Shown piece after piece: positions 6,729 to 48,965 of a stretch of DNA of 64,000 bases. How positions within the stretch are numbered: the stretch's first letter is position 1; each line of letters opens with the position of its first letter. The stretch is from Heliocidaris tuberculata (taxonomy: Eukaryota; Echinodermata; Echinoidea; Camarodonta; Echinometridae). The stretch spans positions 12,840,738 to 12,904,737 of the forward strand of contig CM046835.1 in NCBI GenBank assembly GCA_025618425.1. Reading direction: 5' to 3'. Below the pieces are notes generated by a model. That model saw only the letters and a program-made list of their open reading frames with translations. It ran no database searches and had not been told where the DNA came from. A program made the position numbers and the translations under genes.

Positions 6729-6899
6729 TTAATCCTCGGTACTTATTTCAGTTTGATGACAGTCTTTTGCTGGATATTTTGGTAGGAAGTAGATCAGTTT
6801 ACCGATTCCTTGTTTAACTGTCTGTGGCGTCTGCATCGCTCGATGATATTGGCCTTGCAGTTTGATTTTTGCCTCACGAGATTTCACACGTCTTGTAAC
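6729..6899 (-). CDS. Membrane caspase exon 14: p10 C-terminus and stop
   Basis: Starts in phase 0 after CTGTAG with [17 protein letters not shown], passes [18 protein letters not shown] and ends with a short tail and TAA at 6731-6729. The Q-T-P-Q ... K-L-I-Y-F ending resembles the C-terminal strands of caspase-8/9 type enzymes. A polyadenylation hexamer AATAAA lies 174 bases past the stop (6555-6550, minus strand). Confidence 0.93.
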   Translation of the reverse strand, partial: VTRRVKSREAKIKLQGQYHRAMQTPQTVKQGIGKLIYFLPKYPAKDCHQTEISTED

Positions 6900-9800
6900 C
6901 TACAGTATATGAAAAAGATAAGGATTCGATAAGCAGGCTCACTTTTTTATTTCCCATATTAAATGGTGAGGGACTACTTTAGACCTGGATGATAATGATA
7001 AATCACCAGGTTTTTAATTTGAATCAACAGATATAGATATTATAAGCAGGATGAAACCCTTTCTAACACGGAATTTGCCTTTTCGATTTGAAATGCAATA
7101 TTGTAGGACCAAATATTTTTGGACAGATTTTAGAAGTATGGATTTAAGAATCTCACAATTTTATCTCTCGTGAAAGGCCGTAAATTTGTTACTCCTACCA
7201 TGGTGGAAGGAAAATAGAAGACCGTATAGCTACTAGGTTGCCTATGACAAAATGCATCCCGTATCTTTGACCTGTGCATTTTCCTTGAAAGAATATCCTG
7301 TACATGTATTGACCCGCAAATACACACATTACTAATAAATACATGTAGATCCATGGCTAGAGAAGGTTCCGTCACCTTATCTCCTTTTACTTTCACGATT
7401 TCTGGTACGAAATAATACCTTTGTCATTATAGTGTCAAGATCGTCGAGATGGGCTCTCGCTATCAGTACTTCACAGAGAGCCTGAATAAACCAAGACCCG
7501 TTTACTCGATCCCTCATCGAAAAGTAGCCTTAATAAGAATATAAAGAAAACCACATAATGTTTATAAGAGGTAAAACGTTGATATACACAAAATAAATAA
7601 AGAAAAGGAAAAACAAATAATTGACTTAAGTGTTGTTGTTTTCATCAAGACGAACTTTCATTAAAAAGAATGAAATTCAATATCAATTCTGTCTTCGTAC
7701 AGATCGTCGTGATAGGCTGCATAGCCCTTTGACGATTACCAGAAGAAGAAGAAGAAGGAGGAGAAGAAGAAGAATGAGGAGGAGGAGGAGGAGGAGAACA
7801 TAGTTTTCATGGAATGAACCTAAATATAATCCTGCACTTCAAAACTTTGATTATAGAAGATCTGAAGATAATTACACCGAGGATTTTGCTTGCATTCACA
7901 TTGATAAAAACGCATGCTATCGCACAATGTGGGTCTTTGATAAAATAACTACGCTGTTCTCAAAAGTACCATTTCATAGTCTGCAGCAAACATGTTATTT
8001 TTTTTTCTTACATTGCTACTTTCAGTAATGTCATTGAAATAATGTTACCTTCAGAAGTTGCATATGCTATGTACACGTCTGCGTTGTCAGGGACACCAAA
8101 GTCGGTTTCAGCAACAACCTCCGATTTCACAGGTGCATCATGGGAAAAAGGCAGAAGCCATGATTTGTCATCGTCAATGGGAGGAGCTCCCCGCTTTGCA
8201 TTTTCATTTGATGCCCGCCTTGTCACATTTTCTATTCCGAGGTATCGTGATGGTGACAGGTGAGGAAACATGGAACCAAAAAGGTAAATGGCGAAAATGA
8301 AGATGTTTCTTTATAATTATTATTTGTTCGCAGAATAAGTCAATTTCAAATACTAAATGAATACGAATATTTTCACAATACAATTATAATATATAACTTT
8401 ATTTCAAAACACCTAGTACTTAATCAGAATTCTTTGTCAGGATGGCACAATTTTGAAAATATTTTCAGAAAAATTCATCACATATTTACCAGAAATGATT
8501 TTATATTATGTATCTGACATGACAAGAAAGAAAGAAAAAAAATCTGAACTGTGCGGGGGGGGGGGGGGGGGGGGGAGGGGGTGGACTTTTGTGTGCATAA
8601 AGTATAGCAGTTTTTGTTGGGTGCCCCTGTTTCACCTCCCTCGGCTTCCTCCCCGAAATTCGATTTTGATTTGAGAAGGACATGACTGTGTCAAATTCCG
8701 CTGACAGTTCAGACGCTTGACATCTCCAGATATTATTTGACTGTTATTTTCTAAAAATGTCTATCATAATCACGGGAATAAGGATGAACTTACTTCCACG
8801 GCACGCCTGCACAAAGATAATCTTCGGTTTAGCAATCAACGCGGGGCAATTGCTTCCAGAAAACGTGGCTTTAATTTCGGCCAGTAACCAGGCGTCCATC
8901 AATGCCAAGAATTCCCCTCTCTTCCCCGTGACTCATGAGCACTAGGACAACCGATGTATGCTTCCTCTCGATTCTCTTGGTCAGCTTTTGCAAGACATTT
9001 CGCACCATCTGAATCAAAATAGTAGAGAAGTATTATTTATTGATTCATTCATGTTTTCTTTTGTAAACAGCAGGGTAGTCCAAGTTAGAGTCACGAAGGG
9101 CCTGGTTTACAAGGGAGGCATTCCTGCATCGTTCTTCCGTTATGACTACATATTCATTAAATAGGACAAATAGGGTAGGGGTAAGTAAGCGCTCGTTTTG
9201 CTTTACACTTCTTTTGCCAGGAGGAACTTTCAAACGGAATGTCATGATAATCGAGATAAACTGTCTTAGCGTGTTGCGAGCAACACTTTATTTCCTTATT
9301 TGGATCACGAAATTGTGACACTTCTCTGTTTGATTGTTGCCCGTCTGTGGAGGGAGTACAGACACATCATTCCCGTTTAAAGATACTATTGGACGTTTGA
9401 AATACACGTTGAAAAATCAGCGAAAAAATGGAAAGTACGATTATATAGTCATGATAGATGGTTGCAACAATAATGAAATTCTATTGAAATTAATTTTCTG
9501 CATATGGTATGATTTCATTTAAAAATAATCCTTTAATACTCATATAGATCTAGTCCACATCACCACTGGTTGTTAAGAGCCACTTCATATGCAGAAAGTA
9601 GAACACTAAACGTTTTGATTAGAACATATTTCAGATTGGCGCGCATCGAAAATGCCCGCGATCCTTAAAGTTTAAATTACATGCTAAATTTGTCTATACA
9701 CAAAGCAAATTTACGATTGAGCCTATACAAATCTTTTAATTATCATTTTAACCTATCCTTGAAGTGCTTCGAATATACGAATAGTCCGTACTTACACTAG

Positions 9801-10190
9801 CAGTCAGGTCTTTGAATGTCATGGGCATGTAACCAATTTCCTCGAAGATGTGTTGTATATTACAAACATCTATCTCAGAGCCCTTCCTGAATCTTCCACA
9901 TGCAAAGTTGTTATTGTTCAAAATGAATACGAATCCCTTCTCTCTTGAATCCATGAGATAGTTCTGAAAAGGAGTGAGAAGGGAGACATCGCGAGAGAAT
10001 TAACGATAGGTGCAGGAATGTCTGTCTGATAAAAATGATAGACGATACAAATTTGTAATCCTAAGTGACCGTTTACAAATGACGATGAAAAGCGCCGCTG
10101 CAAGATAACAACGATTTAACGTAAAAATGTATCGCATTGCATTTATTTCCAAGAAAGTTGCCAAAGCTTATATATATGTTATTTCTTTCC

Positions 10191-10250
<60 letters not shown>

Positions 10251-13200
10251 AGAAATTGTTAATGATCCTGCTTTCACATCATAAACTAAAATTGAGATGC
10301 TTAAAGGGGACTATTGTATTCAAAAAGAAAATTAAGTTTTCAGGATATCAATCCTCTTTGACGTTGTTTGAAGGAAATTCATTATTTATTTGGTCTTAGA
10401 GCATACATGCACCAAGAAAAGATATTTTTATTAAACCAAATAATCTTAACCAGCATTTTTAAGAACTTTAACCATAACGAATGTGAAGGTAAAGGTATTA
10501 CGCTTTGAAATCTATTACCTCCTCTGGGTCGAGCTGTTTAGAGGTGGGTGTCGCCGGAATGATATGCGAATCCCGGTAGTAACCGTCCACGTCTGGAGTT
10601 ATCTCTGATGTTTGTATATAGATATAGCGATGTTATTCAAAAGTAATTGTTTGTGTTAATAATCTTAGGAATCATGTATTGTTATAACTCTACAATCATA
10701 TCATTATGTGATAAAGTTTTAAGGTAGGACATGCACTGTTCAGACACAAGCTAAAAGAGGAGACCTTCATTTGCTTATATACTCTAACGGCATTAACGGC
10801 ATTTCCACAGCTGCAAAGTTAATCATGCAGTAAGTTCAAAAGTTTCTGACATCTGGAGTTGTTGTTTTGCTCGCTGGAAAATTTTGTCTAACATCCGGCA
10901 CTCGTGGAAGAATTTAAAAATCATTGGACACATTTTTTACACTTGGCAGTAAAATTGATTAGCTGTGATTTTTTGTTTTAATTTTCTTGTTGCCAAATCT
11001 ATTACTGACCTGTTGCCCGATTTGTTCGGACCGCATCCCCTATTAATTTTTTTATAGCGATGATTCTTTTATTTGTATGTTTGACAGTGAGGTTACCTGA
11101 CATGCTTTATTCATATAAAGAAGTAAAATTGCTGAGGGGTAAAATGTTACATAAAAGATATCTTTGTTGTCGCTGATAAGAGACTGATACAGTAATGAAT
11201 TAAGGTTAGCAAATTATGGGGGAAATGGATCTACCCCACATATTGACAAAATGTGAGAGAAAATCGTGTAGTTTTACCTTCCAGTTGCGTACCACTGTGT
11301 GTTGTCAGAAATGGTTCACATTCTTCGTCAAAAGGGGGTTCGATTGCGTTGATCTGAGAGTGCATGCAGAAGATAGGACAATAAATCATAACAAATTCAA
11401 AATCATAACAGAATTCTACGGCTTCGTTCAAAATGGAATATTTTTGAGACCTCAGATTTTCAGATTTGCGGGTAATACTATTTTTTCGGACATTTTATTT
11501 TTTCGATGTGGAGCAGAAAAGGGTAGTTTCAAAGAGTTATTATTTTTTATACTTGTCCATAATGTTCGCAAAACTCAGAATCTAGAAAAATACTGCAGAG
11601 AAGCAGTGGCGTATCTACGGGGGCAGAGGGGGCACGTGCCCCGGGCGGCACTTGTTGGGGCACAAAAAACGCAAAAGAGAGAAAGAAAAGGGGGAGAAAT
11701 ACAAGAAATTTTATGGTCTTTGAGAATTATTTGCGCCCCAGTCAAGACAAAATGCGTAAGAAATGGTGTTTTACAGGGTTTGAAATGCGAAAATTTTCTA
11801 GAGTTCGGTCGCTTTGCTCCCTCGCATAATTATATTCAAGATCTAGCTATTTCGCGCCCTCAATGGCGCTTTTAAAGTGTTAACCACTAATTGATTCTAG
11901 TTGCTTTGCCCCCTCCCCTACATAATGCAGGACCTTGTTAAAATTTGCTCCCCCAGATGGGATATAAGTGCATAAAAAGCACTTTCAAAGTATAGAACAT
12001 TCGAAAGAAATCATAAATTTGCCTTGTAATACCTTACTAAATTCTTCAAATATATTTCTTCAGGGTTTTCATTCATTTTGCGCTAAAAAAGATCTATTGC
12101 TGGGTCGCTGTATTCCCTTGGATTTTTTTTTTTTTAAGGGTAAAATACATAAGAAATTTCAATTTGTGGGGTGAAAAGGAAAAAATAATCTGCCTCTCGG
12201 TCGCGTTGCTCCCTCGCTTACACAATAACTCATCAAGTTTGGGCTATCAACAAATCAAAACTCATTTTCACGTAGTGCCATCATTTCTAAATTAAAAACG
12301 CTCATTAATCTGAGTTTGAGCAGGGGGGGGGGGGGGGGGGGGGGTGGCGCGCACATTTGATAGTTTGTCCGGGCGCCAGAATACCTAGCTACGCCACTGC
12401 AGAGAAGTGTCACACTCCACAAATAAATCTTCATCATATTTTATCAAACGTTTATTAATATAGAAAGAGATTTTTGTAAAATGATACTGACCTTCGTAAT
12501 TCTCCTTTTTATTAGGTAGAATGAGATACCAAGAATGAAACCTGATAGCGGAACAACCAGAAATGCCAGGTAAGAGTTGGCTTCTAGTCCATTGGAAAGA
12601 TGGAAAAGATAGCATTATTCGAAATTAGCCCCAAAATATTGTATGGTATCTTCAAGGGGACAAATTGAAAAAGTGTCCATCTCAGTATTATTTTCCCTAT
12701 TTCAGGCTAAAAACGAACAGTAAGGGACGAAGGAAAACAAATCGAAAGATACAGAGAGATATGAAAGAAGGATAACGAGTAACATGATGAAAAAATGGAA
12801 GAGAAGATGATAGAAGGATAATGCAAAGAAAATCATAACAAAGGATTGAGGATAGAAGGGTAGGAAAGATGAAAGAGAAAATGATGGAAGGAAACAAAAA
12901 ATAATAACGAATGGAAAGATGTAAAGCAAAAAAAAAAAAATGATAGAAGGATAAAAACAGAATAGCATAACGAAAGATAGAGAGAGAAATCATAGAAGGA
13001 TAAATATAAACATGAGATGGATGAGAAGAATGATAAAAGAAAACAAAGAATAACATAGAGTAAAATAAACAGAAAAAATGATAGAAAGATAACCAAGGAA
13101 TAAAATAATGAAAAATAAACAGAGAGAGAAAGAGAGAGATGACAGAAGAATGAATTTAAAGAGCAACATGAGGAAAGATGGAAGAGAAGATGATAAAAGG

Positions 13201-15675
13201 AAACACAAAATTCATTTGATAATTAATTAAATCATTAATTAATCTCCCATCAGGTCACCCTCTTTCTCCTTTTTTTCCCCTTGCTGCTCAAAACAAAGAT
13301 ACTATATAATATAAAGATAATATTCCTGGAAAATGTTCGAAAAAATGTTCGCCGCGCCGAGACCCGACTGTAGATGTATTATAGCAAAAGCCGCGTCTCC
13401 TATATGCCTCCCCCTAAATTCCGTTAAGTTCATGGCTCAAACTCTTTTTGCAATATTGTGATAAGCAGAATAAAAAACCTATAATTACATTTAATTCATA
13501 GCCCGCTATTGTCGACCACTGTCACTTTCGGGTTCTCGCTTCTGTCGACGATCGTCGACAGAAATTGCGTACAAAAGATATAGCACTTTGAAATAATCCA
13601 GCAGCCATGGGTTTCATAATGCACAGGGCAAAGAGTTAATTGACCTCTTTGACCTTTGACCTACCAACCCAAAAGTCTGATCACTTTGTCTCCTCATTGT
13701 CATGTATATAACAAAACTAACAAATGTTTCATTTCATGTATATTGACCTCTATGACCTTTAACCTTTGACCGAGGTTCCCCGAAAATCTAATTAGATAAT
13801 CTTCCTATCGTCATGATCGTGATATAATTATACTACCACCAAGTTTGAAGTTTATACTTCAAACGGTTCTTCAGATATCGCGTTAACGAGGCTAAAACCT
13901 GAAATTTCAGAATTTGACCGCTGTGACCTTTGACCTTTGACTTACGTACTCCAAAATCTAATCAGATTTTATTCACATGGTGTCATATACTAGCACCAAG
14001 TTTGAAATTCTTACCTTTAATTGTTCTTGAGATATCGCGTTAATGAGCAAGGGGAAGGACTGACAACCCGAAAACATAATCACGATAAAAAATGAAGTGT
14101 AATTCCAGCAGAGGCATCTCTCTCTACGTCTCTCTACGCAATGCCATTTCATAAATATTCTGACCAAATGGTCATCATGATGATTGTGTTGTCCTTAAGT
14201 CACCTCAACTGCATAAAACGTAAAGATATAGCATCTGTGAGAAGTGCAACCTATCTGGTAACGAATACATCAGTTTGTATCGAACTGAGGTTGTTGCATT
14301 ATTCAAATAAAGAATATAATTAAATTTTAAAAAAGAATCCGTCGGTATAATTTAGTTGGTAAATGTAAACAAGATATGGCCGTACGTACAACTTCCATCA
14401 TATAAATTGTCTGATGTTCATTTCCTAAGCAAGGCAGGCAAGTGAAGCAAGAAATACAGCGTGAATACCCCTTTACGATAAGAATGCTGTATGCGAAAAT
14501 ATGTTTATAACATATGACACTTTCCAGCACCTGTTGAAAACATTGTTGGCTTATGTTTTCTGCTAAAACTAAAAACTAAACCTTAAAAGACCCCTGCAAC
14601 CCAAATGCAACCCAAAATGCAAGTTTATTGCTGTTGCTGTGCAGGGATGCATACAACTAATATTCTGTTATTCAAACATCTAGATATGTTTCATAGATTT
14701 TTTAATGTTTTGTGAAATATTTTTCCCAACCTCTTAAGCTCCACCCTAAAAAAAGCTCCAGATCTCATTCCTGCAATGACATCATCTGTCAATCATCAGT
14801 CAGCTACACTAACATTCCACAATAGACGGTGGAATGTAACTTCCCCCAGCCCAGCACATGCTTACTATCGAATTGCATGCTTTCAAACAATACCTCCTCA
14901 TTACCCTTCTTTTCCTGGTGATGCTACAGCATGTCTGACATAGCAACTCTTATGTCGGCATTGTATGGTCTATTAGAACAGATGGTCATCTCTGGCAAAG
15001 CTACATACCACTGTATCTCCTTAGCTGACTAATGATTGACAGATGATGTCATTGCAGGAATGAGATCTGGGGCATTTTTTTTTTTTTTTTTAGGGTGGAG
15101 CTTAGTACGTTTGAGAAGATGATTTTAAAAATATTTAAAAAATTTATGAAACATATTTAGATGTTTGAATAACAAAATATAAGTTGTATGCATACCTGAA
15201 CATCAACAGGAATCAACTTGTATTTGGGTTGCAGGGGACCTTTAAGGAAAGACAAATAGCTAAAATTGATCATTTATATGATCCCACAGAAATCGATTAC
15301 CTATAAAGACTGAAGTTTATTTGCAATCATGCATGCTAATCTAGCTAATGTATGAAGATAATATTCAAATTTGTCTCACTATTATCTTTGGGAGAACTTA
15401 AATCTCCCTTCGTCGTCCATTGCTTCCCCAGTGCACCGGGGGTGGTTGTGGCCTGTCTACTTCCCAGTAATCTGTGTAAAAGATTTTGGCGTCGTTGTTT
15501 GATTCTTGGTCACAGGCACTCCTGGACCGTGGGTCCCGTGAGTGGAAAGAGGGCCATCGCCTGCTAGTACAAGAACAACAGCTGCAGTAATAATAATGAT
15601 GATGATGATGATGAGGATGATGAGGATGATAATAGTAAAAAAAAATTAAAAAAATAAATAATGATAATAATAATA

Positions 15676-15706
<31 letters not shown>

Positions 15707-16661
15707 TCATCGTCATCATACTTATAATAACAATAATATTGATATTAATAATCATAATAATAATAGTTTTAGTAAGAGGAATAACAGTAATTATAATAAT
15801 AATAATAATGACAATAATGATAATAATAATGTCTCAAACCTGTGCAAGTGGGTAGATCTGCTGACAATGTACCATCACCAAGGCAGGAGACAACAGCACT
15901 GCCGTTGAGGGCGTAACTATCGTCGCATGTGAAAACACAGCCTGCTCTAAATGGAATCCTGAAACCAGGTCCACAATTTACGTCACAATTTCGTAGGTTT
16001 GGCGACAGCTGTAGGATGATACACTCAACAGCTAAAACAGATCAAGCAAAAAAATTGGTGACTAGTCATTCCTCAAAGACGTCGCTGCCGTACCTTAAGT
16101 ATCTTAAGTTGATCGAATCATTCTATGAAGTATTTGTGTTTGAGATCTTCTAAAATTCGAACAGAATACAGAATAGTCTGCCGCGCTGCCTCTATTTAAA
16201 TTCCCCTTCTTCTTCTAATTCTTATTTTTCTTTTTCTTTTTCTCATCTTCTATTCTTTTTTTTTTTTTACATGAAATCATCAAAGTAACGATAAATGGTA
16301 CATTTTATGTTATCAATTCGCTTGTTTTGTTGCTGTTTTTTGGGGGTGTGGGTGTGTTTGTTTGTTTCGTTTTGTTTGTTTGTTTTTGTTTTGTTTGTTT
16401 TTGTTTTTCGGGAGGAACTACTTTTCTGTCAAAGAAATTACAAGTTCCATGCTGGAAACAATTAGTATGAATTTAGTCGTCGGAACTTTAAAAATGACAC
16501 TGTTAAAAAAAAATAAAAATAGTGCTGAACATTACGTAGAAGAGTAAACTCCCTAAACAGTTATGCACACAAGGGACAAGACAGATAACGTTGCCACAAA
16601 ATACTTGGACGTATAAATAACTGTAATTATGTTGAAACTAGACGTCACATCATGGGTTGAT

Positions 16662-16738
<77 letters not shown>

Positions 16739-17082
16739 TTACAATGTATAACTGTATCTCAAAGCATTCGCTCAAAGCATGCGGCTTGTCATTGTCCAAA
16801 ACTCACCTGCCCCCGACAAAGGAATTAATTAATGAGGTTGAAGATTTGTCAGTCTGTCGGTTAATTGAATTTGGTGTCGCCGAAACCACTGGCCCGTCTC
16901 CGTGGTCTAGTGGTTAAGGCATTGGCATTCTAAGCCAACGACCCAGGTTCGATTCCCAGCGGAGCCATTTTTTCAACCTTTGCAAAAATTTGAAAAAGGG
17001 AGGACAGCACTGGGGAACTTTGAATTAAGCTACGCAACCATTATTCTCTCATTTCATTTCTCACAATATACATATACGTATA

Positions 17083-17173
<91 letters not shown>

Positions 17174-18000
17174 TTGGCGTATCTAGGTATTCTGGCGCCC
17201 GGGGCAAACTATTAAGTCTGCGCCCCCCCCCCTCTTGCCCAAACTCAGATTAATGAGCGTTTTTAATATAGAAATGATGACACCACGTGAAAATGAGTTT
17301 TGATTTGTTGATAGCCCAAACTTGATGAGTTATTGTATAAGCGAGGGAGCAACGCGACCGAGCGGCAGATTTTTTATTTTTTTTTCCTTTTCACCCCACA
17401 AATTGAAATATCTTATGTATTTTACCCTTCAAAAAAAAAATCCAAGGAAATACAGCGACCCAGCAAAAGATTTTTTTTATTTTTAATTTTGAACATTCCA
17501 ATTGGGGGGGGGGGGGCGCAAAATAAATGAAAACCCTGAACAAATATATTTGAGGAATTTAGTAAGGTATTACAAGGCAAATTTATGATTTCTTTCGAAT
17601 GTTCTATACTTTGAAAGTGCTTTTTATGCACTTATATCCCATCTGGGGGTGCAAAATTTAACAAGGTCCTGCCTTATGCAGGGGGGGGGGGGGCAAAGCA
17701 ACCAGAATCAATTAGTGGTTAACACTTTAAAAACGCCTTTGGGGGCGCGAAATAGCTAGATCTTGAATATAATTATGCGAGGGAGCAAAGCGACCGAGCT
17801 CTAGAAAATTTTCGCATTTCAAACCCTGTAAAACACCATTTCTTACGCATTTTGTCTTGACTGGGGCGCAAATAATCCTCAAAGACCATAAAAATTTCTT
17901 GTCTTTCTCCCCCTTTTCTTTCTCACTTTTGCGTCTTTGCGCCCCCTTCTAGTGCCGCCCGGGGCACGTGCCCCCTCTGCCCCCCGTAGATACGCCACTG

Positions 18001-18032
<32 letters not shown>

Positions 18033-21000
18033 GATTAAAGTCGTTGCAAGGCCTGACCTACAATTTTAAAAGAGGGAACGGTTGTAAAATCAACTGATTT
18101 TGAAATAGGTAAAAAATATAGTTTACCTCGACAACTTGGAAGTTCAGATGACAAGGATCCGTCCATCTGACACGTTACACTTGATTTGCCAACAAGACGG
18201 TAGCCAATTTGGTCACATTCGAAGGTGCATGTTTTCACATTAGACGACTTAGTACAGCTAATTTTAGATTGAGGTTTGCAGTCTCTTGATATCAAGTGTA
18301 CACCGAATGACGGCACATAGCAAGCTGAAAGCAAGAAGAGGCTTTCTTTGGATAAGTATGACGAAACTTTAAAGACATTTAAAATGTCGGAGCGGAGGAC
18401 ATTATGAACATAAAATTGTGTCAGAAAAAGGGTGAGGAGGTTGAATATAGTTTAAAATTTGGTTATTTTCACTCCTTCATTAAATGTAATTTTTGTTTTA
18501 ATCATAAAAAAATAATCATCTCACTATCAGAACCAATCTACATTCGCTTTAATAGTAAAACGGGAAATTCATATTCAATTCGTCTAACCCATCTTATATG
18601 GGTAAAAACGTCTATGGGAAACCTGTTTTGTTAAATTTTCATTGAATTCGTGTAAATTGGGGGGGGGGGATCTCCAGACTCGTTTTATCATAGTGTTTGA
18701 TATTTATTATCATTATTATTATAAGTAGTTGTTTTGTTTTTGTTTTTGTTTTTGTTTTTGTTTTTGTTTTTGTTTTTTTTTTGGGGGGGGGGTTGGGTGA
18801 GATCATTGAATAGTTACGGTTTAATATTTTTCTGAAATATTACGTAGCCGGAGGAAATAATACTTTATCCTACCATTCGGACATTATATACGATGTGTTG
18901 TAAAAATTATCAATATACATGCGAGAAATATTTTAGAAATTAAACACAATTGAACCCCTTTACCGTGTATGAGACCATCAGAGATCAACTTATCAGTGAG
19001 ACCATTAATCGCGTAGTCCCTTGTGTCTTCTCCGTTGTTTTCGTATCGCACAACAGCGCGGATTCCTGTCACTTCATCCTTCACCATTGCATCATATACG
19101 ATGGGATTCGATAATTTATTCAGTCGAGCGTAAGTGATGAAACTGATTTTTCGACAATATGTTTGTAATCTATGAGGTGGAATGAATGCCATGATATATC
19201 CATGGATATACTACTGAATATATTAATAAAATTATATATGATAATTATATTCAATCGACGAGAGTTTTTTATCTTATTCAATACTGCTGAAATAAATAAT
19301 ACAATTTTACAAATCAATGATTTCATGTAGTATTCAGGTACGAGAGGAAAGTAATATGAAAAGTAATATGATGCAGAGAGTTATAGACCTTTATGTCGAT
19401 TCTTTACATGTCGACTAGTTTAAGTGCTGACCTTGTTAGCTTCTGGACGCTTTACAGAAGGAAGATTGTGGGTAGACTCTAGAGAAATGCTATATTTCCT
19501 TTAAAATTCCAGACCATCGTATACTATTTATATATGATTAATATATATATTTTTAGAATATTGATTGTGATTGATTTCTTTCACACTTCCTTGGAATTTG
19601 TTGGAAATGTTAAACATTAAATGTTGATACCTTTATTTGTATTGATGACATAAGTAACATAAGTCTGTTTACTGTGAAAACATCGCAATTTCAGAAGAAC
19701 AGCTTCCTTGTCTATTGAGGTTTCCTTAATTGTATCTGACAGTTTGGACGTTCACACTAAGAACCGGAGCTTATTGATAGTAAACCACTTGCAAAGTTTC
19801 AGTTGAAATAAAGGAAACACCAAGAGCAAAAGTCAGTTATGATAGATATGAATTTACAATGAGACTATCAATTCACTTGATGAACGATAACTTTGATCTC
19901 AGGCCAAAAATAAGGGAATTGTAGCAAGATGATTTGGAAATCTATGAAAAGATTGTTTATTTCATACTTTTGTTATGGAGGATAGTAGTCCGTATGTTTG
20001 TATTATGGGTTTTAGCAATGGCAGTGACCTACCTCATTTTTAAAATATCGTTGTTATGAAGTTTAATTACTGGTAAAGGTGAAAATTACTTCGTGAGCTT
20101 CCTAGTTTTATTTTTTTGTTCTATGTGGAAGAATAATATGATAACAATGTAACAAATTTTGACATATTTGTCTTGTCGTATACATCCATATCTGTGCCCA
20201 GTGCTATATGATGAACTTCCAAAGATTGCAAAGCATCACAATACATAAATATTCACACTTACTTCATAATCAACTAAAATCATTCATTTGATACTTACGA
20301 CACCTGTTTTCCTATGAAGTGGAAAGAGGGCATCACCTTCCTCAAACTTCTGCACAGATTCTTGATCGCGCACATAGACGGGAAGGAAAAATACGGGGAA
20401 AATGCAAACTGAGGCTCATCAAATTTTCTGTCCACTTTATTGTCATCATGATTTCTTGATAACCCTTCTACAGACAACTGAAATTCTGTTCTTTTCTTTT
20501 GAACATGTTGAATGAAATACCGTGGACTCTGTTTAAAACTCCGATTTTTGCTTACTTTAATATGATATTCAAGCACAATGATTTTTTGTCTTCCTAACAA
20601 CAAATGCCGAAATGCGTGTATTCCAGAATGATTCGAAATCATCTGACCATGGAAGAACTCACTCGAGATTTTAGTCATGGCGGCTAGAATGGAGGCAAAC
20701 TAAATTATATTTATTTCTTTCAGATAATGCAAATGTAAATCCAGTATGAAAAATATCCACCTGCCGCCCTCTTAAATGTCTAAAAAAATGTGCTTCTGTT
20801 TAATGTATTGTCAACTTTTATTCACAATGTTTTTAATGTCGGGTAAAGTGTGTAGAAATAGTGTCTCAAGGATTTCAGGATTACAGGGCAACTATTTAAC
20901 CCATCTGACAACTACCCACAGGTCAGTTACCTCCTTTTTTTTTAATTTTGCCCTTATTCCCTGTAGAAAGCTGACAGCTCACCAAAACCCTATGTTTAGT

Positions 21001-22247
21001 ATTCATATTACTTTTCAGAACCTGAATAGGGTAGAATTCATGTGTTAAAATGCCAATATTTAATGCCAAAGCGATTTATTTCACAAATCGGATCGCAGAC
21101 CGATCGTAAGGTGTGCGGTGGCTTTAATGTATCTCCTTAATTTTTTTTTCTTCTCACTATTACTGTATAGCGGTGTGTCTGGAATATTCCTCTACATTAG
21201 TTTCAATGGTCTTATTGTCGGCAGCCGACATACTCTAAGCGTCATTACGAGGCCTACATTATAACAGCACACTCTATCTACAGTATCAGTTTTCTTAGGA
21301 AACAAAAAATATATTATTATATCAACAATTATCCAACAGATAAAGAACTTACCATGGTCAAAGTGAATTTGAACTGCATCGAGGAGTTTCCTTGAAGAAA
21401 AATGATATATTTTCCCCGGATTGAACATGTTGGTGATTGCTCGTCGCACTCGAAAGCTCTAAACTTTGTTTGGACCATACGTCACCTGCGAAACAAGCAT
21501 TATAGAATTGATTAAAAACGACTGAGTTTAGCCCACAGCCTTGTTGCCATTACTTTACATTTTATTAATTAAACAAATTAATGTACTGGTTATTCAACGT
21601 TTCTGAACAATGTCGATTTGAAATCCCCACACTGGGTTTGAGCAAAACAAAGAAACAAACGACAACAAAAAGCCATGACTGTAACCAGCCCTGTAGAGCT
21701 TGTCCCTTTGTTAAATGTGACTTTCACTGAGCTTTACAGAGAAAAGGTCTACAAAGATGTAAAATATGACGATATCTATCATGATATTTTTAATCCGGTT
21801 ACTTCATATTATCTGGTAAAGAATACAACATAATAAAAAACAGCAGAATTTGCCCAACATATATCTATTGGAGGCTAGAAAGGCTTCTTTGACTTTTTGA
21901 GATTTGCTTTCTTGAAATTACCAAAGTTTGACAACAAATACAATTGCATTCTAACCAAATGATATTTTTGAAACTATCTCCGAAAGTGAAGGGGCAAGGG
22001 CAAAGCGAAACCTGCCTGTATACTAATTGTATACAAAATAATAGTCTTCGAATAATTTCCTACAATTTTCTAAATCTTTATAAAAATAGATATATATGTT
22101 ATGTATTGTTATTTTACTTTCATGTTATTATCTTGCTTTTCTTCTCTGGACATAATAAGTATTCATAATGCATCATCGATCATTCTCACCTAACAAACAG
22201 CAAGAGAATAGATGCACCATGAAGAGTACTGCACTAGATGACAGCAT
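6729..22247 (-). CDS. Single-pass membrane caspase: signal peptide, unknown ectodomain, two sushi domains, TM helix, caspase p20/p10
   Basis: Exons in coding order (high to low coordinate): 22247-22190 signal peptide; 21485-21353, 20683-20299 and 19169-18964 unrecognised ectodomain; 18324-18127 sushi 1; 16031-15840 sushi 2; 12583-12492 TM; 11353-11278 and 10604-10519 cytosolic linker; 9963-9796 and 9008-8794 p20; 8231-8049, 7528-7419 and 6899-6729 linker and p10, TAA stop. From sushi 1 to the stop every junction has AG/GT ends and compatible phase. The product would be about 756 residues once two single-base frame lesions (exon 2; p20 exon) are discounted. There is no CARD or DED prodomain; a stop-transfer helix takes that place, putting the protease in the cytosol below an extracellular sushi stalk. 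I infer a receptor whose clustering could activate the caspase directly. Single-gene status is an inference from splice phase and needs a transcript. Confidence 0.72.
7419..7528 (-). CDS. Membrane caspase exon 13: p10 substrate pocket
   Basis: A 110-base exon, phase 1 in and phase 0 out at GTATTA, identical in length to its paralogue exon at 1928-2037. It encodes [19 protein letters not shown], the loop carrying the S1/S2 pocket Arg and the invariant GSW. It continues [18 protein letters not shown]. Confidence 0.93.
8049..8231 (-). CDS. Membrane caspase exon 12: interdomain linker and start of p10
   Basis: A phase 1-1 exon. It opens [18 protein letters not shown], passes an acidic IDDD, then reaches [18 protein letters not shown] and ends ATSEG. 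The AETD-F position aligns with VDTD-C in the plus-strand paralogue, immediately before the shared VPDNAD, which marks the likely activation cleavage between p20 and p10. Confidence 0.9.
8794..9008 (-). CDS. Membrane caspase exon 11: p20 active site (SHG and QACRG), interrupted by a +1 frame lesion
   Basis: Between a TTCAG acceptor and GTAAGT donor. The first half reads [19 protein letters not shown], then [19 protein letters not shown], containing the catalytic His and the I-x-G-x-D-G strand, then runs into TAA. The second half is open in the +1 frame: [16 protein letters not shown], then [12 protein letters not shown] with the catalytic Cys. The exon is 215 bases; phase 0 in and 1 out needs 214, so one extra base near 8900 explains both facts. 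Both catalytic residues are intact on either side. This is either a disabling mutation or a base-level assembly error. Confidence 0.85.
9796..9963 (-). CDS. Membrane caspase exon 10: p20 N-terminal half
   Basis: A phase 0-0 exon of 56 codons bounded by TTTTCAG and [26 protein letters not shown] corresponds to the first p20 strand (Y-x-M ... G-x-x-x-I-x-N-N-x-x-F). It is followed by [18 protein letters not shown] (R-x-G-S/T-x-x-D), then [16 protein letters not shown] (the L/I-G-Y/F ... D-L-T signature). The arginine in the RKGS motif is the expected P1-Asp binding residue of p20. Confidence 0.92.
10193..10246 (+). repeat. (TA)n microsatellite
   Basis: Uninterrupted TA run of about 26 units in the intron between exons 9 and 10 of the membrane caspase. 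Confidence 0.95.
10519..10604 (-). CDS. Membrane caspase exon 9: linker before the protease
   Basis: An 86-base exon, phase 1 in after CATCAG and phase 0 out at GTAATA. It reads [17 protein letters not shown], then [11 protein letters not shown]. The PDVD-G motif resembles a caspase cleavage site placed where effector caspases lose their prodomain, so it is a candidate for release of the protease from the membrane. That role is inferred from position and motif only. Confidence 0.75.
11278..11353 (-). CDS. Membrane caspase exon 8: cytosolic juxtamembrane linker
   Basis: A 76-base exon, phase 0 in after CTCTCAG and phase 1 out at GTAAAA. It encodes [18 protein letters not shown] and HSGTQLE, an acidic, Pro-rich, probably disordered segment just inside the membrane. 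It holds an aspartate after EPPF that could be an autoprocessing site, but nothing shows that directly. Confidence 0.7.
11604..12399 (+). mobile_element. hAT-type non-autonomous element in the intron between TM and linker exons
   Basis: Terminal inverted repeats CAGTGGCGTATCTACG and GTAGCTACGCCACTG (reading into the flank), bounded by an 8-bp target duplication CAGAGAAG (11596-11603 and 12400-12407). Eight-base duplications with CAGTGGCG ends are hAT-like. No transposase is encoded. A second copy lies inverted at 17172-18000. Confidence 0.85.
12492..12583 (-). CDS. Membrane caspase exon 7: transmembrane helix and stop-transfer
   Basis: The exon is entered in phase 1 after a CTAG acceptor with a pyrimidine tract and left in phase 0 at GTCAGT. 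It encodes EANSY, about 20 apolar residues ([20 protein letters not shown]) and then the basic stop-transfer KRRITK. With an N-terminal signal peptide this gives type I topology: sushi domains outside, caspase inside. It is the only hydrophobic segment of helix length between the sushi and caspase exons, and its phases match both neighbours. Confidence 0.82.
12700..13215 (+). repeat. Purine-rich degenerate tandem repeat upstream of the TM exon
   Basis: Repeats of ATGATAGAAGGATAA and AAAGATAGAGAGAGAAA with units of about 50-60 bases. Minus-strand open frames here are Phe/Leu/Ser low complexity. Intronic. Confidence 0.75.
13640..14060 (+). repeat. TGACCTTTGACCTTTGACC-type dispersed repeat
   Basis: Three diverged units, each with tandem TGACCTTT words followed by AATCTAAT or AAGTCTGAT, two of them also with ACCAAGTTTGAA and GATATCGCGTTAA. 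Located in the intron between the TM and sushi 2 exons. Confidence 0.7.
14581..15247 (+). mobile_element. Foldback element in the intron between the TM and sushi 2 exons
   Basis: CCTTAAAAGACCCCTGCAAC at the left is mirrored by GTTGCAGGGGACCTTTAAGG at the right. The arms extend more than 200 bases inward (CATTCCTGCAATGACATCAT with ATGATGTCATTGCAGGAATG). Non-coding. Confidence 0.8.
15585..15832 (+). repeat. GATGAT/AATAAT microsatellite beside the sushi 2 exon
   Basis: Imperfect (GAT)n, (AAT)n and (CAT)n runs end only about 8 bases from the sushi 2 donor site. The weak GTTTGA donor there may reflect repeat erosion. Confidence 0.9.
15840..16031 (-). CDS. Membrane caspase exon 6: sushi (CCP) domain 2
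   Basis: Phase 1-1 exon opening [13 protein letters not shown] and closing LSADLPTCT. The core [18 protein letters not shown] and the spaced Gly-x-Leu-Ser ... Pro-x-Cys ending are typical sushi features; there is an extra cysteine pair as in domain 1. The donor is GTTTGA, weaker than the others. Phase 1 out matches the TM exon, which begins with the last two bases of a split codon, so the domain sits immediately outside the membrane. Confidence 0.85.
16663..16733 (+). repeat. (CA)n(TA)n microsatellite
   Basis: About 19 CA units followed by about 15 TA units, intronic. Confidence 0.95.
16896..16967 (+). tRNA. tRNA-like head of a SINE (anticodon loop ATTCTAA)
   Basis: Cloverleaf is visible: acceptor GTCTCCG with CGGAGCC (one mismatch), A box TGGTCTAGTGG, anticodon stem TTGGC/GCCAA with loop ATTCTAA (formal anticodon TCT) and B box GGTTCGATTCC. 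A T6 run follows. A truncated copy at 24852 shares the sequence beyond the tRNA, so I favour a SINE head over a working tRNA gene. Confidence 0.55.
16896..17000 (+). mobile_element. tRNA-derived SINE, copy 1
   Basis: The tRNA-like head is followed by TTTTTTCAACCTTTGCAAAA and AGGGAGGACAGC. The same tail occurs at 24875-24925. Confidence 0.7.
17070..17171 (+). repeat. (TA)n tract hosting the inverted hAT-type element
   Basis: TA repeats with occasional TACATA steps; resumes at 18001-18031 after the element. Confidence 0.95.
17172..18000 (-). mobile_element. Second copy of the same hAT-type element, inverted, within a TA microsatellite
   Basis: Nearly full-length reverse complement of 11604-12399, ending TACGCCACTG at 18000, with TA repeats on both sides. 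It lies in the intron between sushi 1 and sushi 2. Differences are mostly in poly-G runs and one A/T-rich block. Confidence 0.85.
18127..18324 (-). CDS. Membrane caspase exon 5: sushi (CCP) domain 1
   Basis: A phase 1-1 exon, the classic class for sushi modules. It starts after a TTTCAG acceptor with [11 protein letters not shown] and ends SELPSCRG at a GTAAAC donor. It shows the framework C ... C-x-F-x-C ... Y-x-L-x-G ... C ... G-x-L-S-x-x-L-P-x-C, with two additional cysteines in the N-terminal half ([10 protein letters not shown]), a selectin-like arrangement. An extracellular adhesion or complement-type module. Confidence 0.85.
18964..19169 (-). CDS. Membrane caspase exon 4: unrecognised membrane-distal domain
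   Basis: Open frame reading [18 protein letters not shown], then [18 protein letters not shown] and [15 protein letters not shown], leaving in phase 1 at GTAAAG directly into sushi 1. Two acceptors are possible: CATAG at 19171-19170 behind a CATTCATTCCACCTC tract, or the tandem CAGTAG at 19212-19211, which adds 41 bases and changes the entry phase. The alternating polar/hydrophobic pattern suggests beta strands followed by a helix. I do not recognise the family. Confidence 0.55.
20299..20683 (-). CDS. Membrane caspase exon 3 (exact splicing uncertain): ectodomain
   Basis: One frame is open over the whole interval from a TAG acceptor (20685-20684) to a GTAAGT donor (20298-20293), 385 bases, phase 1 in and phase 2 out, fitting exon 4 at 19169. 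Residues such as [19 protein letters not shown] and [12 protein letters not shown] are plausible; the second half is oddly Arg/Ser/Phe rich. The alternative is two exons: 20683-20556 ending at a GTAAGC donor, then 20349-20299 in another frame ([17 protein letters not shown]). That joins exon 4 in phase 0 at 19210 and reads more naturally. The ATG at 20678 has a good Kozak context (GCCGCCATGA), so an internal start is a third possibility. No known domain seen. Confidence 0.4.
21353..21485 (-). CDS. Membrane caspase exon 2: ectodomain, with a +1 frame lesion
   Basis: The exon lies between a CAG acceptor (21487-21486) and a strong GTAAGT donor (21352-21347). Entered in phase 1 from the signal-peptide exon it reads [17 protein letters not shown] and on to [10 protein letters not shown], then meets TGA five codons short of the donor. 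Its length, 133, is one base more than a phase 1-1 exon allows. In the +1 frame the second half is open to the donor ([15 protein letters not shown]) in the phase the next exon needs. The switch is most simply placed in the T run of ISFF (about 21395-21400). This is either a homopolymer sequencing error or a real disabling change. No domain recognised. Confidence 0.45.
22190..22247 (-). CDS. Membrane caspase exon 1: signal peptide
   Basis: The ATG at 22247 is preceded in frame by TAA nine bases upstream, which fixes the start. The 19 codons read [19 protein letters not shown], a short hydrophobic leader, and end in phase 1 at a GTGAGA donor. The exon was found by looking for a leader upstream of the sushi exons. 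Its phase fits exon 2 (acceptor at 21486), whose first residues ([10 protein letters not shown]) look like a mature N-terminus. A chance hydrophobic ATG-to-donor stretch is the main alternative. Confidence 0.6.
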
Positions 22248-25907: not shown

Positions 25908-26161
25908 TCATGAACGAACAAAAACATGGACTCCAACTTCTTGGACCAGATCCGTAGGATCTTCAAGGGAACCACTTAGTACGCAGTAACGACCCGCTGC
26001 CACCCATGTAAATGCATCACAGTTTACGGTGCTCATGCATTGTTGTGCACATCTGATCTGGGTTGTTGGACCTTCAACTGTTTCAATGCGCTTGCTAGTG
26101 GCAACAGTCTTGTCGGTAAATCGGAGAGAGAAATTGCTCGATGTCTTCCGGGCAGGACCAA
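25908..26161 (-). CDS. IgGFc-PAN gene exon 5: terminal PAN/apple domain
   Basis: Phase 1 in after ATATTTAG, ending VHVFVRS and TGA at 25910-25908. The cysteine pattern IRCAQQCMSTVNCDAF then YCVLSG is the PAN core (C-x3-C ... C-x-A-F ... C-x-L). The exon ends the protein 20 or so residues after the domain. It parallels the terminal PAN exon at 54183-54472. Confidence 0.88.
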
Positions 26162-27450
26162 CTAAATATTCAAAGAAAGTTTTTTTAAAAATGATTATTT
26201 GCAGTACATTTAAACATGTAGACATATATGCACTTATGTATAATATCTGAACCCATATACCTCGTACAAAGACCGTTATGCAATAACTCATACAACAATT
26301 GTTTATTTGGGATCAATCTGGTTAAAACATGTAAAAGAAATTAAAACGCATGTGTTATATTCGTTTCATGTGGTTTGAGTGACAATACTTTACAGTTTTT
26401 GAAGAGAAATTATATTTATGAGCAGCAGATTGTTTGGTGATCAATATACAATAGACGACTTGATTTTTGAAGAATTTGCAATCCTGATAGGGATGTTCAT
26501 CCGAAATTGGCAACAATTAAGTTGCTTATGATGCAATGCAACATTTTTTTATTGGCATTACTAGACTACATACTCGGTTATAATTGAAAGATTAGAATTA
26601 GAATTGCTGATCTCCATTTCTTACCCATCTAAATTGTCACTCTTGCCTCACCGTGGATTAATCCATAATTATTGGAATTTAATACTGGAAAACGTTTGGG
26701 GACACATCAAAATTGTTCAAAATTTTTACTTTCTATTTGCGCTATCCATTTCAAACTTTTCTTTCTTTTTACTTTATTTTACCGGTTATTATCTTTGTTC
26801 CATTATGAGAATTTCCTCTATTTTCATTCGTAATTGTCGTATAGAACCACTGCATTTTTTTTTTACACAAACCGGTTTCCATTTTTACTATAATTTGACA
26901 GCAAGCTGCTTCCTTGTATCAGTAAAATGTTATGTTGGTAATCATTGTTTATTGTGATTTTATCAATAATCCAATTGTTATTATAATCGATTATATCAAA
27001 TGCTGTCATGGCAGAGGTCTGAACTTTAGTTGAACCACGCAGAGAAATAAATAATTTTACGCCTCAATTTCCTTACAAATCTTTCTTACCAAACAACTTA
27101 AATGAATGTTTGTTGTTGTTGTTTTTTTTCAGAGACGTAGGCACGTAGCTATACCTGAGTTAGTCGTAGCCAATGTGGTCATCACATTTGCAGTACTTGG
27201 TTCAGAAGTAGTAGTTTCTGTTGTTGGGGAGTCAGTGGATGTCGGTGTTGTGATCACCTGTGTTGTCGGACTAATCGTCGGTACTGGTGGTGGCTGTATT
27301 GTAGTTGTTGTCTGGGTGGTTGTTGGTTGGGAGGTTGTGGTTTCATCCCCACCTAAATTGAGGGAGACAAAATTATGCAAGAACGCTCATGCAAATGGTT
27401 ATAGAAGGCAAACGTTTATCTGTGTCTCGAAAATATGATAATAGTAATAG

Positions 27451-27496
<46 letters not shown>

Positions 27497-30400
27497 CAAC
27501 AATAATAATAATAGTAATGAAATAATAATGTATAATCTTTTTGGATTTCTAGATTTTTCTATATTTTTAAGCTTTTTTCTCATAAAAAGAAGCATTTTGT
27601 ATTGCGTATGACTAATTAATAAATGCCTCTGTTAGAGTTATGAAGGGTAATATCACTTCTGGATAAGTTTACACGTAAAAAGAGTGATGCGATTTTCTAG
27701 CTTTCATACTTACCGTAAATTATGGTTTGGTAGTCTGGGCATCTTTGTGTCTCGTATTTCTGACCGCCCACATATGCATATCCAGCTGAATTATCTTTTC
27801 CATAATTCACAACAAAAAAGGCTCCATTAGTATTAGACTGCGTTATAGTGTATGTAGCGGTCTGAGCTCCTTGGTAAGGGTAAGCACACATGGCGCCATT
27901 TGATGTTGGAGACGGCACCGTTGGCGTGTAAATAGCACTACCGGGAGCAGTGTAAGTAATATCTAAACCTGAACCGGACGCGCATGGGGCCACGATGGTA
28001 AAGTAGTGGGTTAAAGTAAAACCGAGGCTGTCTGCTCCTGTTATTCGTATGTATGTGGTCTTCAGTGTGTATTGTTCTTCGGGTGGTATGACAACCATTG
28101 ATGTGGCTCCCCTGAGGAATTGCACTACTTGAATGGGCTTATCACTGGTGATACGAAGCATGGTGTTCGTTGTCACTTCTCGACTTTCAGTTTGACCTTG
28201 GCTAAGGCTGACCGATGTACCATCGACGTTGATATTGGTGTTGTCTCTGCCTGCAGTAACCTGAATGTAGTAACCTGTCGAGCCATCTGCAAACGGTGGT
28301 ACGTGAAATGAGGTTCCCCATTTGTCATATGGCATCAGCTGTTCTATGGCATAATCGCAGGATCCGGCAGAAAGTCCAGGACTATAAGCACAGGCAGATC
28401 CACTAACTACCGAAATAGACTGGTTGGCCAGTATTCTCGACCCAGTAAAGTCGTTAGATGAAGTAGTGATAACCATCTGATACCAGGCCGGAATCTCCAC
28501 TTCCAAGTCTGAAAGTGGACTAGTATAGGTAACGCCGTCGTATATAAATGGACCATTGGGTGTAAGACGAACGAATGTTGTTTCACCGGTCGAAGAGATA
28601 ACCACTTGTCCAAGACCTGGACCCGCTCGAATTGATGCAAAATATTCCTGGCCTTGAAATTCAAGAGGAATTACACCCGTGGCGCCATATGTAAATTCCT
28701 GTAAAGGAATGAAGTTGCAATCTGCATATCATTAAACTCGACAGCTTAAGTACAATAATAGGGGGTCAAACAGCAAAGTTGCCTTGGATTATCACGTTGC
28801 CAAAAAAAGGAAAAAATAATTTGCCGATAAATTTTCGCTAAAAATCCCAAAACAAAGAAAAAGGAAACGTTATAACACTGTTAAAATTGCAGACTTAAGT
28901 TGAAAATGATACTTTGCACAGGCTTTGAGCACAGATGATTATAATGGGGATGTTTGGACTTCGGATCGATGGTATAATGAACAACTAAATGTCAGATTCC
29001 CACCTACCATAATTACAAGAAGTATGACCGAAATAAAGGCGATGATTTGCAAATGTATGATACTCCCTTCGAACATTGTTCAATGCAAAAGCTTCTCCAG
29101 CTCTATTGATACTTACTGCAGAGTTTGATCCATATAAGTACATCCTGAGATTGTTGTCAAGGCTGATTTGTAATGTCCCGTCTTGTAATCCGGTAGTTCT
29201 ATCAACTGTTGACTCTGCAGTGTATGTCAGCTTAAAATGCTCGGGCATTCCTAATACGGAGAAGTCTGCAGATGCAGCCTGGGCCGGTCGAGCTATGGTG
29301 AAAGAAGTACCCGATGATCGGTTGGTCTGAATGAAGCATCCGTAGTCTCCGATGTACGTACTGTACTGGCCGCTTGCAAAGAGACCGTAAACAAATTCAT
29401 CGCCAAATCTGGTTGAATCTGCATGATCTCCGACTGTCATGAAGAAAGTAGTTGAATTAAAGGTCAGGATTCATTTATATTATTAATCTTATATTGTCGA
29501 TCAAAAAGGGTATAAACTAATATAATAGCATATATCCAAGAAAAACACATACACCTACTTCTTCAAGTATGTCCAATAGGGAAAAACAAAGATTTCTCAT
29601 AGAGACCTACCAGGAAAAAAGATGAAAAGAAAGTATTAAAGAAAAACGTTACTTAAAAAAAAAAAATTAGCTATGTATGAAAATCTCCTGAACGAGGTCA
29701 TATACAGCTTTAAAAAAAATCAGAACGTTTGAATTATACTTGGCGTCTTTCAGTCTTTCAAATTTTGCCTAAATCCATAGTGATCTTATTTGAGAGTGAG
29801 AAGCACTCAAAAGAGCGTGAAATTCCACTCTCACAAGCAGTTAAATGAGGGACAACCCTTTTTCGAGTGAAAAAAAGTGGTCACTGTTTCACTCAGGAAA
29901 GAATGAAACACCAATCCTTTAAAGAGTGAAAATTTTCTCACTCATGTGGACAGAATGGAGATAACTCACTCCTTTCCGAGTGAAATCATCAACTCAAGAG
30001 TATTTTGACGGGCGCGGTTCGCCACGCCGGCTGACACGGCTATCTTGTCAGGATGTCCCCGTGCCTGGCCGAGCTCCCCGTCCGTCCAGTCAAAATGTAT
30101 GACCGCTGCTGATGGCTGGAGTAACTGGCACTTGACCGTCAGCTACTGCAAACCACCAGGTCTACCAGCAATCACTCAGCCGTCGATGGCAATCAGTCAC
30201 CTTTCTCGCCTCTTCACAACAGCAGACAATAATTGGTCATCCCTCGAACAATCAAACACCTTGATTTGAAGATCACTCACCAGCAATCTTTGTCTCTCAG
30301 ATCATGAGCCCGTTAATTAACTCAATTAATTACTCAGAAGATTTGTTTGTTGCTTAGATGTAAAGCATCTTTAATTATCATCTCCAAGCAACAAGGGATT

Positions 30401-47276: not shown

Positions 47277-48965
47277 CTAGGAAGCCATAGGATGGATTGC
47301 GTAATTATTTAAGAGGGATATTTTGAATTTGGGTTTAAATGTATACAGTGAGCCGGTATTAGTTAAGTCTGGAGGGAGGTCATTCCACAGTTTTGGTCCT
47401 GTAAATATAATTGTATTTTGTGCAAAAGCTGTTCGAGTACGTGGAAGGTGATAAGAATGGCTTTGTCTGGTTGGATAGGAGTGAAGTGAATAATTCATAA
47501 CGAACATAGAAGATACAGGGTTAGGAAGTTCATGCTTTGCAAGTTTAAACATGAATATTCCTAGATTATATGTAAATAGTTCGTGAATCACTAGTGGAAG
47601 AGTGGGGTTGTGAGGGTACGAAAAGATGTAGTATTATTATTCTAATAGCCCGTTTTTTCTTTACTCTTCACATCAACATTTACTATCCTTGTATTTCTCT
47701 CTTCCCTTGCTTTATTTTATGTTGTCTTTATATTCGTTTTATTATGTTCACCATACTATATACGTGTCGTAACAAGTTTTCAAATTACGGATTCATAATT
47801 GTATTATTATTCTGCCACTTTTTGGTAATCTGTGTATATTTATATTTTTCTGGTCAATATATTTACATGTTAAAAAAAATACGTTTGTCATTTTTTCGAG
47901 GGATCCACAAGCTTTGCTTTTCAGTGGATTCCTCCATTTCCACAGGTCTAACTTAAAAAAAAAAACAACAACAAAAATACTTTTATACTGGATGTCTGTG
48001 TATACTTTCCATTTTATAACTTTAAACCATGTAAAATGAATTTTGTTATTGAATATTGAATTGTATATTTGATTTCTTGTTAAAATCACTGTTCTGTTGG
48101 AAACGCGTGGCTAAATGAATAGCGGTTTTGTATGAATAGCGGTCCTTCTACACAGCGAGCAAACCATAGACAAATTACCTCGCTATTCATAAGGACCACT
48201 ATTCATAACTATTCATAAGGACCGCTATACATAACACATGTTAAATGAATAGCGGTTTTCTATGAATAGTGGTCCTTATGAATAACGAGTGGACCCGGTT
48301 TAAGTATGGTAGGATTAGTGTAGAATATAAAGAAAGTAAGACATGAGTAGGAAATGAAGCTTTAAGCTTGCCAATGACTCCTGTATTTCTCGATATGATT
48401 TTACTTATGTTATTTATGTGTGTTTTCCAAGTTAATTTGTTGTCGATGTATATTCCTAAGAATTTGGTTGTTTTAACTTGAACAAGAATTATGTCGTTTA
48501 GTAAAACTGGTCCTGGTAGATGTTCAGTTGATTTGCTGAATAAAATGAAGTTTGATTTGTTTATATCAAGTGACAGTTTGTTTGCTGGATCCAGTTTAAT
48601 ACAAAGATTAATTCGTAATTTACAGTAATCGGGAGGATTTCAGGATTACGGTTTGAGAGAAAAATGTTGGAGTCATCAGCAAATTAAAAAAAAAGAAAGT
48701 TTATTAGAACAATTTTGAAAATCATTGATGTAGAGTATGAATAACAGTAGACCAAGTAATGATCCCTGCGGCACTCCGCATGTAACACTTTTCATTTGAG
48801 ATTCATTACCATTTATATTAACATACTGCTTACGGTCTGAAGGTAATTCCTGAACCACTCCAAGGCCTTCCCACGAATTCCATAGTAGGAAAGTTTATAT
48901 AGAAGAACGTTGTGATCGATGGTATCGAAGGCCTTGGAGAAGTCCAGATTTACATTTGAGCGCTA
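47277..48965 (-). mobile_element. Degraded non-LTR retrotransposon (reverse transcriptase), with an insertion
   Basis: On the minus strand 48960-48306 shows reverse transcriptase motifs in order: [45 protein letters not shown] (the YADD-type catalytic box) and FLGIYIDNKLTW. The frame breaks at an A/T run near 48690. A C-terminal piece lies at 47591-47277 (HSYHLPRTRTAF ... TGPKLWNDLPPDL ... FKPKFK). The roughly 700 bases between are unrelated and contain a palindromic repeat (48108-48300), so the element was split by a later insertion. Jockey/CR1-like type; inactive. Confidence 0.85.
48108..48300 (-). repeat. CTATTCATAAGGACC repeat cluster, copy 2, inside the split LINE
   Basis: Contains the same 15-base word in both orientations and the same edge words (AACCATAGACAAATT; GAGTGGACCCG). 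Lies within the insertion that separates the two LINE pieces. Confidence 0.8.

Follow-up and report, generated by a model that had tools for sequence, protein, structure and literature searches.

Extrinsic cell death is taught as a sequence of receptor, adaptor and caspase, in which death receptors recruit caspase-8 via FADD. To our knowledge, the known animal caspases are soluble proteins, and the initiators among them carry a CARD or a DED. A stretch of 64,000 nucleotides from the sea urchin Heliocidaris tuberculata (contig CM046835.1, positions 12,840,738 to 12,904,737, hereafter the window) raises the question of whether sensor and protease can be joined in a single molecule. An earlier note on this DNA had proposed such a protein, with sushi domains outside the cell, one membrane helix and a caspase inside. 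The reading favored here, at a probability of roughly three in four, is that the gene in the window belongs to a family of echinoderm membrane caspases in which clustering of the receptor activates the cytosolic caspase, which then cleaves itself. The exon order and phases of the family, its conservation, its predicted caspase fold and its catalytic residues are documented at several loci and in several species.

The copy in the window, here called gene B, lies on the reverse (-) strand, where splice sites and phase were calculated for each of its exons in turn. A candidate signal-peptide exon (22190–22247) is open from an ATG, has a GT donor and ends in phase 1. An exon of 206 nt (18964–19169) encodes an N-terminal domain (N-domain), identified by a predicted β-β-β-α fold and by alignment to relatives. 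Two sushi exons, both of phase 1-1 and defined by splice ends and profile, come next (198 nt at 18127–18324 and 192 nt at 15840–16031), followed by a transmembrane (TM) exon of 92 nt and phase 1-0 (12492–12583), whose hydrophobic stretch (hydropathy 2.21) runs into the basic sequence KRRITK. Two juxtamembrane linker exons (76 nt, phase 0-1, at 11278–11353; 86 nt, phase 1-0, with PDVDG inside, at 10519–10604) lead to five caspase exons: C1 (168 nt, phase 0-0, 9796–9963), the catalytic exon C2 (215 nt, 8794–9008), C3 (183 nt, phase 1-1, 8049–8231), which holds the inter-subunit linker with ETD before FGVPDNAD, C4 (110 nt, phase 1-0, 7419–7528), which reads GSWFIQALC, and C5 (171 nt, 6729–6899), which ends in a stop codon.

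The sushi, transmembrane, linker and caspase exons were thus all recovered with AG/GT ends where they had first been placed. Nine of the ten phase pairs given for them also held; the catalytic exon (9008–8794), which had been assigned 0-1, instead runs 0-2 over its 215 nt. When the spliced product, with an X placed at the frame break in C2, was compared with Pfam, Peptidase_C14 scored 164 bits and Sushi 38.4 bits over two stretches, the latter above the curated cut-off of 20.7. These were the only families matched at E up to 0.1, with no TNFR, CARD, DED or death domain.

The 5' end of the gene is less complete. The signal-peptide exon at 22247 is plausible in itself, but the N-domain exon (19169–18964), absent from the original gene model, sits between it and the first sushi exon, so that a direct joint from 22190 to 18324 is unlikely. 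No phase-matched joint was found between the candidate signal peptide (22247–22190) and the N-domain exon. At least one extra exon would be needed between the two, and a search for it there found none. A stricter scan for a phase-compatible Thr/Ser/Pro-rich stalk exon in gene B found none, and a looser one gave 19 candidates, of which five were phase-compatible; none of these five was longer than 21 residues, and none was convincing.

The same architecture is found elsewhere in this genome. Gene A lies next to the window on the opposite strand, tail-to-tail with gene B, and shares its exon order. Its last three exons fall inside the window on the (+) strand: C3 (1082–1276), C4 (1928–2037) and C5 with the stop codon (2362–2568). 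Outside the window (L022) are its N-domain, two sushi exons, a Thr/Ser/Pro-rich stalk exon, the TM exon, two linkers, the first being the best among several candidates and the second holding PDVDG, and C1. Its catalytic exon is expected within L022:7501–10000, which is all N and reaches the left edge of the window. Gene K, on contig C11 (39492981–39508285), has the N-domain, one sushi exon, a stalk, the TM exon, linker 2 and C1 to C5, and all ten of these traced exons are open. Exon lengths modulo 3 agree among A, B and K, except for the N-domain exon and C2 of gene B.

Two loci on contig C7 and one near 27.82 Mb on C11, from a cluster around 27.8 Mb in which three regions were examined, were partly traced, and all three have caspase exons together with the N-domain and a sushi-like stretch. 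The P-D-x-x-G linker is present at the C11 locus and at one of the two C7 loci. For two family caspases on C19, the 60 kb examined contained neither an N-domain nor a sushi stretch, and one of the two has PDVDG. Across the whole genome (897 Mb, 69 contigs), a Peptidase_C14 profile search gave 58 matches, which count exons and not family loci.

The TM exon was the subject of a separate scan. The interval between the sushi exons and the first cytosolic exon was searched for stop-free exons running from phase 1 to phase 0, with a pyrimidine-rich acceptor, a hydropathy above 1.8 and a basic tail. Exactly one match was found in five of six loci (B, A, K, one C7 copy and C11 near 27.82 Mb); the scan found none in the second C7 copy, and the opposite strand of the same six stretches gave no match in any of the six controls. 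The filters were fixed after the exons of A, B and K were known, and the independent part of this result is the match at two of the three other loci (C7 and C11). When gene A had been scanned by itself beforehand with looser filters, one low-complexity candidate had come through as well. With five of six loci against none of six controls, a chance hydrophobic open frame was rejected as an explanation.

The TM exons are alike in place, phase and character, with a hydrophobic core that includes Pro and is followed by Lys/Arg, although their sequence identity is low (14% between A and B over 29 codons, 21% between A and K, and 32% between B and K). A single helix with a basic cytosolic flank between ectodomain and effector is the layout of a type I membrane receptor. 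In the predicted model of the relative P0003, a helix spans residues 368–388, with low confidence there.

Gene B itself looks damaged. In exon C2, MSHG falls in frame 0 and QACRG falls in frame 1, with no single frame that stays open over the two motifs. The counterpart of C2 in gene K, 217 nt long and of phase 0-1, is open over its full length. Because the reading frame shifts between the two residues of the active site (His and Cys), gene B as assembled cannot encode an active protease, and the first description finds no support on this point. There are two further phase anomalies. The N-domain exon of gene B, at 206 nt against 205 in gene A and 208 in gene K, has a different start phase. 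The only long stalk-like stretch of the gene, a Thr/Pro-rich open stretch with AG/GT ends at 15560–15461 (-), resembles the stalk exon of A and K and is out of phase because of its 100 nt; it is possibly a decayed stalk exon.

The frame break in C2 and the out-of-phase stalk-like exon together indicate that gene B is probably decaying, a family member damaged recently. The low ratio of Ka to Ks between A and B (0.15 for 473 codons and 0.11 for 208 codons of the caspase, with C2 left out, both rough because synonymous sites are saturated) shows that the gene was under selection for most of its history. For the TM exon alone, the ratio is 0.50 over 29 codons. That the animal carries an intact gene B, with frame problems that are errors of assembly, is rather unlikely. 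The gene was seen in one assembled haplotype only, its remaining caspase exons are open, and the divergence between A and B speaks for strong constraint, all of which would suit such errors. However, no frame break is seen in the exons traced for A and K from this assembly, a comparison that the unread catalytic exon of gene A does not enter, whereas gene B has three phase anomalies. Damage to the gene is therefore the preferred reading, and assembly error is its main rival.

Relatives are found in other echinoderms. A first protein search (E up to 0.001) gave 39 proteins, led by four from Diadema (P0001–P0004) to which the database assigns the Pfam families Sushi and Peptidase_C14, followed by proteins of Lytechinus and Strongylocentrotus. 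A second, profile-based search, in which only the 7994 candidates sharing most words were scored, gave 42, including P0041 (Strongylocentrotus), P0046 (Diadema) and P0051 (from the starfish Acanthaster planci). Receptor-type proteins are predicted in five urchin species, Diadema antillarum, D. setosum, Lytechinus variegatus, L. pictus and Strongylocentrotus purpuratus, all under the name “uncharacterized”. These proteins are gene predictions, and the genomic DNA described here is a second line of evidence. The proposal that sushi domains, a membrane helix and a cytosolic caspase belong to one molecule is well supported by A and K, traced exon by exon, by the three partly traced loci and by the gene models of five other echinoid species.

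In each of the 11 receptor-type echinoid proteins examined, a single strongly hydrophobic segment separates the ectodomain from the caspase, and P0002, P0005 and P0041 also have hydrophobic N-termini. Their Sushi scores straddle the cut-off of 20.7, with P0003 (65.4) and P0046 (26.8) above it and P0005 (20.3) and P0041 (13.2) below. Despite these low scores, the sushi stretch of P0005 and P0041 aligns with the same Cys pattern. No CARD or DED was detected in the nine relatives scanned.

The ectodomain of the family combines the small conserved N-domain with sushi repeats, which number from one to four in echinoids, and in many cases with a stalk rich in Thr, Ser and Pro. A search with the ectodomain alone returned four proteins, all from Lytechinus and the query among them. 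Genes A and K have the N-domain too, and that of gene B could be aligned to each of the nine relatives compared. The domain has 68 residues and a predicted β-β-β-α fold, for which the dsRNA-binding and the anti-lipopolysaccharide-factor folds are candidates; a search for a sequence family to which it belongs found none. The starfish protein P0051 (634 aa) shares the N-domain and has a long hydrophobic stretch ahead of its caspase but no sushi repeat, so that membrane caspases bearing the N-domain may be older than the divergence of urchins and starfish.

A few other predicted proteins depart from this plan. P0009 (Strongylocentrotus) and P0017 (Lytechinus pictus) have four hydrophobic segments ahead of a PDVDG linker and then a caspase, and may represent a second type of membrane caspase in urchins. 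The single model P0040 (Diadema antillarum, 769 aa) runs from a caspase through an N-domain and a sushi-like stretch to another caspase and is probably two tandem genes fused by annotation. In P0058 (Mytilus coruscus, 735 aa), the large and small caspase subunits are far apart, the database lists several Ig families, and hydropathy gives no TM segment.

The caspase domain of the family is recognized by profile and by predicted fold and has the His/Cys dyad. The catalytic His and Cys are in one frame in 30 of the 31 rows of the caspase alignment, and the gene K exon is open over both. The family shares this predicted fold, the dyad and the inter-subunit Asp with caspases of family C14A, such as CED-3, caspase-3 and caspase-9, but has an ectodomain and a membrane helix in the place of the prodomain.

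In a tree of 30 caspase domains, in which X stands at the break of gene B and for the unread exon of gene A and the midpoint root serves for drawing only, the echinoderm proteins other than a CARD-bearing one from Strongylocentrotus form a group (99/97), as do the echinoid proteins (97/97). Gene K groups with the receptors of Strongylocentrotus and Lytechinus (100/99). A, B, P0046 and the group with four TM segments have no settled place, and deep joins are unsure because several branches are long.

How would such a protein work? In the favored reading, the N-domain, the sushi repeats and often a stalk lie outside the cell, followed by the helix with its basic stop-transfer tail. Inside are a short linker, usually ending in P-D-x-x-G, and a caspase without a detected CARD or DED. 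Binding of a ligand or of a microbial surface would cluster the receptor and bring the caspase domains together, as adaptors do for caspase-8, and the caspase would then cut itself at the conserved inter-subunit Asp. In members with a juxtamembrane D|G, it could also free itself into the cytosol, where it might start cell death or immune signaling, perhaps in coelomocytes. The likeness to the pathway from death receptor through FADD to caspase-8 is that clustering at the surface would join caspase domains; the difference is that here all of it would be one molecule, and the spliced reading of gene B has no death domain or DED.

The juxtamembrane D|G is present in 18 of the 19 echinoid proteins aligned. 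It is missing, though, at two loci of this genome, which read PDGRG (C7) and PDRNG (C11, 27.82 Mb), and in three non-echinoid alignment rows that have letters there, and PDVDG occurs at a C19 locus that lacks the N-domain and sushi repeats. Release by a cut at this site is therefore not a family-wide rule.

One alternative, to which we give clearly less weight, is that the membrane caspase is an effector held at the plasma membrane and switched on by the cut of another caspase, with the ectodomain serving for location or adhesion. Mammalian executioner caspases are switched on by cleavage and not by clustering. Among the best 60 of the 219 solved chains nearest to P0005 by sequence, caspase-3 comes out on top, with CED-3 and caspase-6 further down. 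The absence of CARD and DED matches from the spliced reading of gene B and from the nine relatives is consistent with such an effector, as is the inter-subunit Asp, which is kept in 27 of 27 echinoid rows.

Activation by clustering, which is still the preferred reading, can be extended to a whole pathway from microbe to cell death in one echinoid protein. The N-domain, if it has the fold of a lipopolysaccharide-binding factor, would sense microbes together with the sushi repeats, clustering would activate the caspase, a cut at D|G would release it, and catalytically dead sister proteins such as P0046 would act as brakes. This extended version is improbable as a whole. The braking principle is that of c-FLIP, a catalytically dead relative of caspase-8. 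P0046 (Diadema antillarum, 681 aa) keeps the order of sushi, TM and caspase and has both catalytic residues replaced, which makes it a possible pseudo-caspase at the receptor level. Unlike c-FLIP, it is itself predicted to be a membrane receptor; by analogy, it may have an inhibitory role.

The weakest alternative, that a sushi-TM gene and a caspase gene are separate neighbors and the predicted fusions annotation artefacts, could appeal to evidence made up of DNA and gene models, to P0040 with its two apparently fused tandem genes and to relatives without an ectodomain, which include P0012, P0013 and P0016, but it is very improbable and was rejected, since equal order and phases are kept at three loci read from DNA, A and K among them, and in gene models of five other species, and the phase-matched TM exon is found at five of six loci and in none of the six controls.

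A receptor with a built-in caspase is not without precedent. The TNFR-caspase of amphioxus (Zhang et al. 2008, PMC2575513) is a predicted transmembrane protein with an extracellular TNFR, an intracellular caspase and reported cDNA support. It has in common with the urchin family a receptor ectodomain outside and a caspase inside on one chain, but its ectodomain is of the TNFR type, whereas the urchin proteins have the N-domain and sushi repeats instead. No amphioxus name is found among the 39 and 42 relatives (five and two rows, respectively, are nameless), so that a separate origin of the two kinds of receptor-caspase is likely, judging from these sequence matches. A wholly new principle was rejected, given the amphioxus protein already in print.

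The earlier note knew of no described family with this domain order. That stands for the sushi-TM-caspase order, as titles and abstract openings among the literature matches listed describe no such protein and no echinoid membrane caspase, but not for the general idea of a receptor with its own caspase. The echinoid family with N-domain, sushi, TM and caspase is thus undescribed as far as could be seen, and the receptor-caspase kind is already known. According to PMC3196919, the sea urchin genome has five ICE-like genes, none of them linked to a CARD; the Strongylocentrotus caspase P0054, however, does bear a CARD in the domain column of the database. The apoptosis genes of Strongylocentrotus were the subject of Robertson et al. 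2006, as cited in PMC6394757.

A conserved animal family with receptor and caspase in one chain would mean that the wiring has been short-cut in echinoderms, as in amphioxus. It would make the minimal requirement for activating a membrane caspase directly testable, and it would open a way to study how the immune cells of urchins might link recognition at the surface with caspases.

Several other features are found in the window. A tRNA-Arg (TCT) is predicted at 16896–16967 (+), inside the intron between the two sushi exons of gene B. Similar copies of a repeat were seen by eye on the (-) strand in two introns of the gene, at about 18000–17180, before the second sushi exon, and at 12400–11600, after the TM exon. 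Also on the (-) strand, two long open frames of 343 and 161 aa (27697–29470) look extracellular, with repeats of the IgGFc-binding type by eye, and Cys-bearing open frames at 25908–26312 and 54183–54542 are PAN/apple-like by eye. Thr/Ser-rich open frames of 811 and 316 aa (55544–57979 and 59462–60412, (-)) are mucin-like, and open frames at 47277–48639 (-) appear by eye to be pieces of a non-LTR retrotransposon reverse transcriptase.
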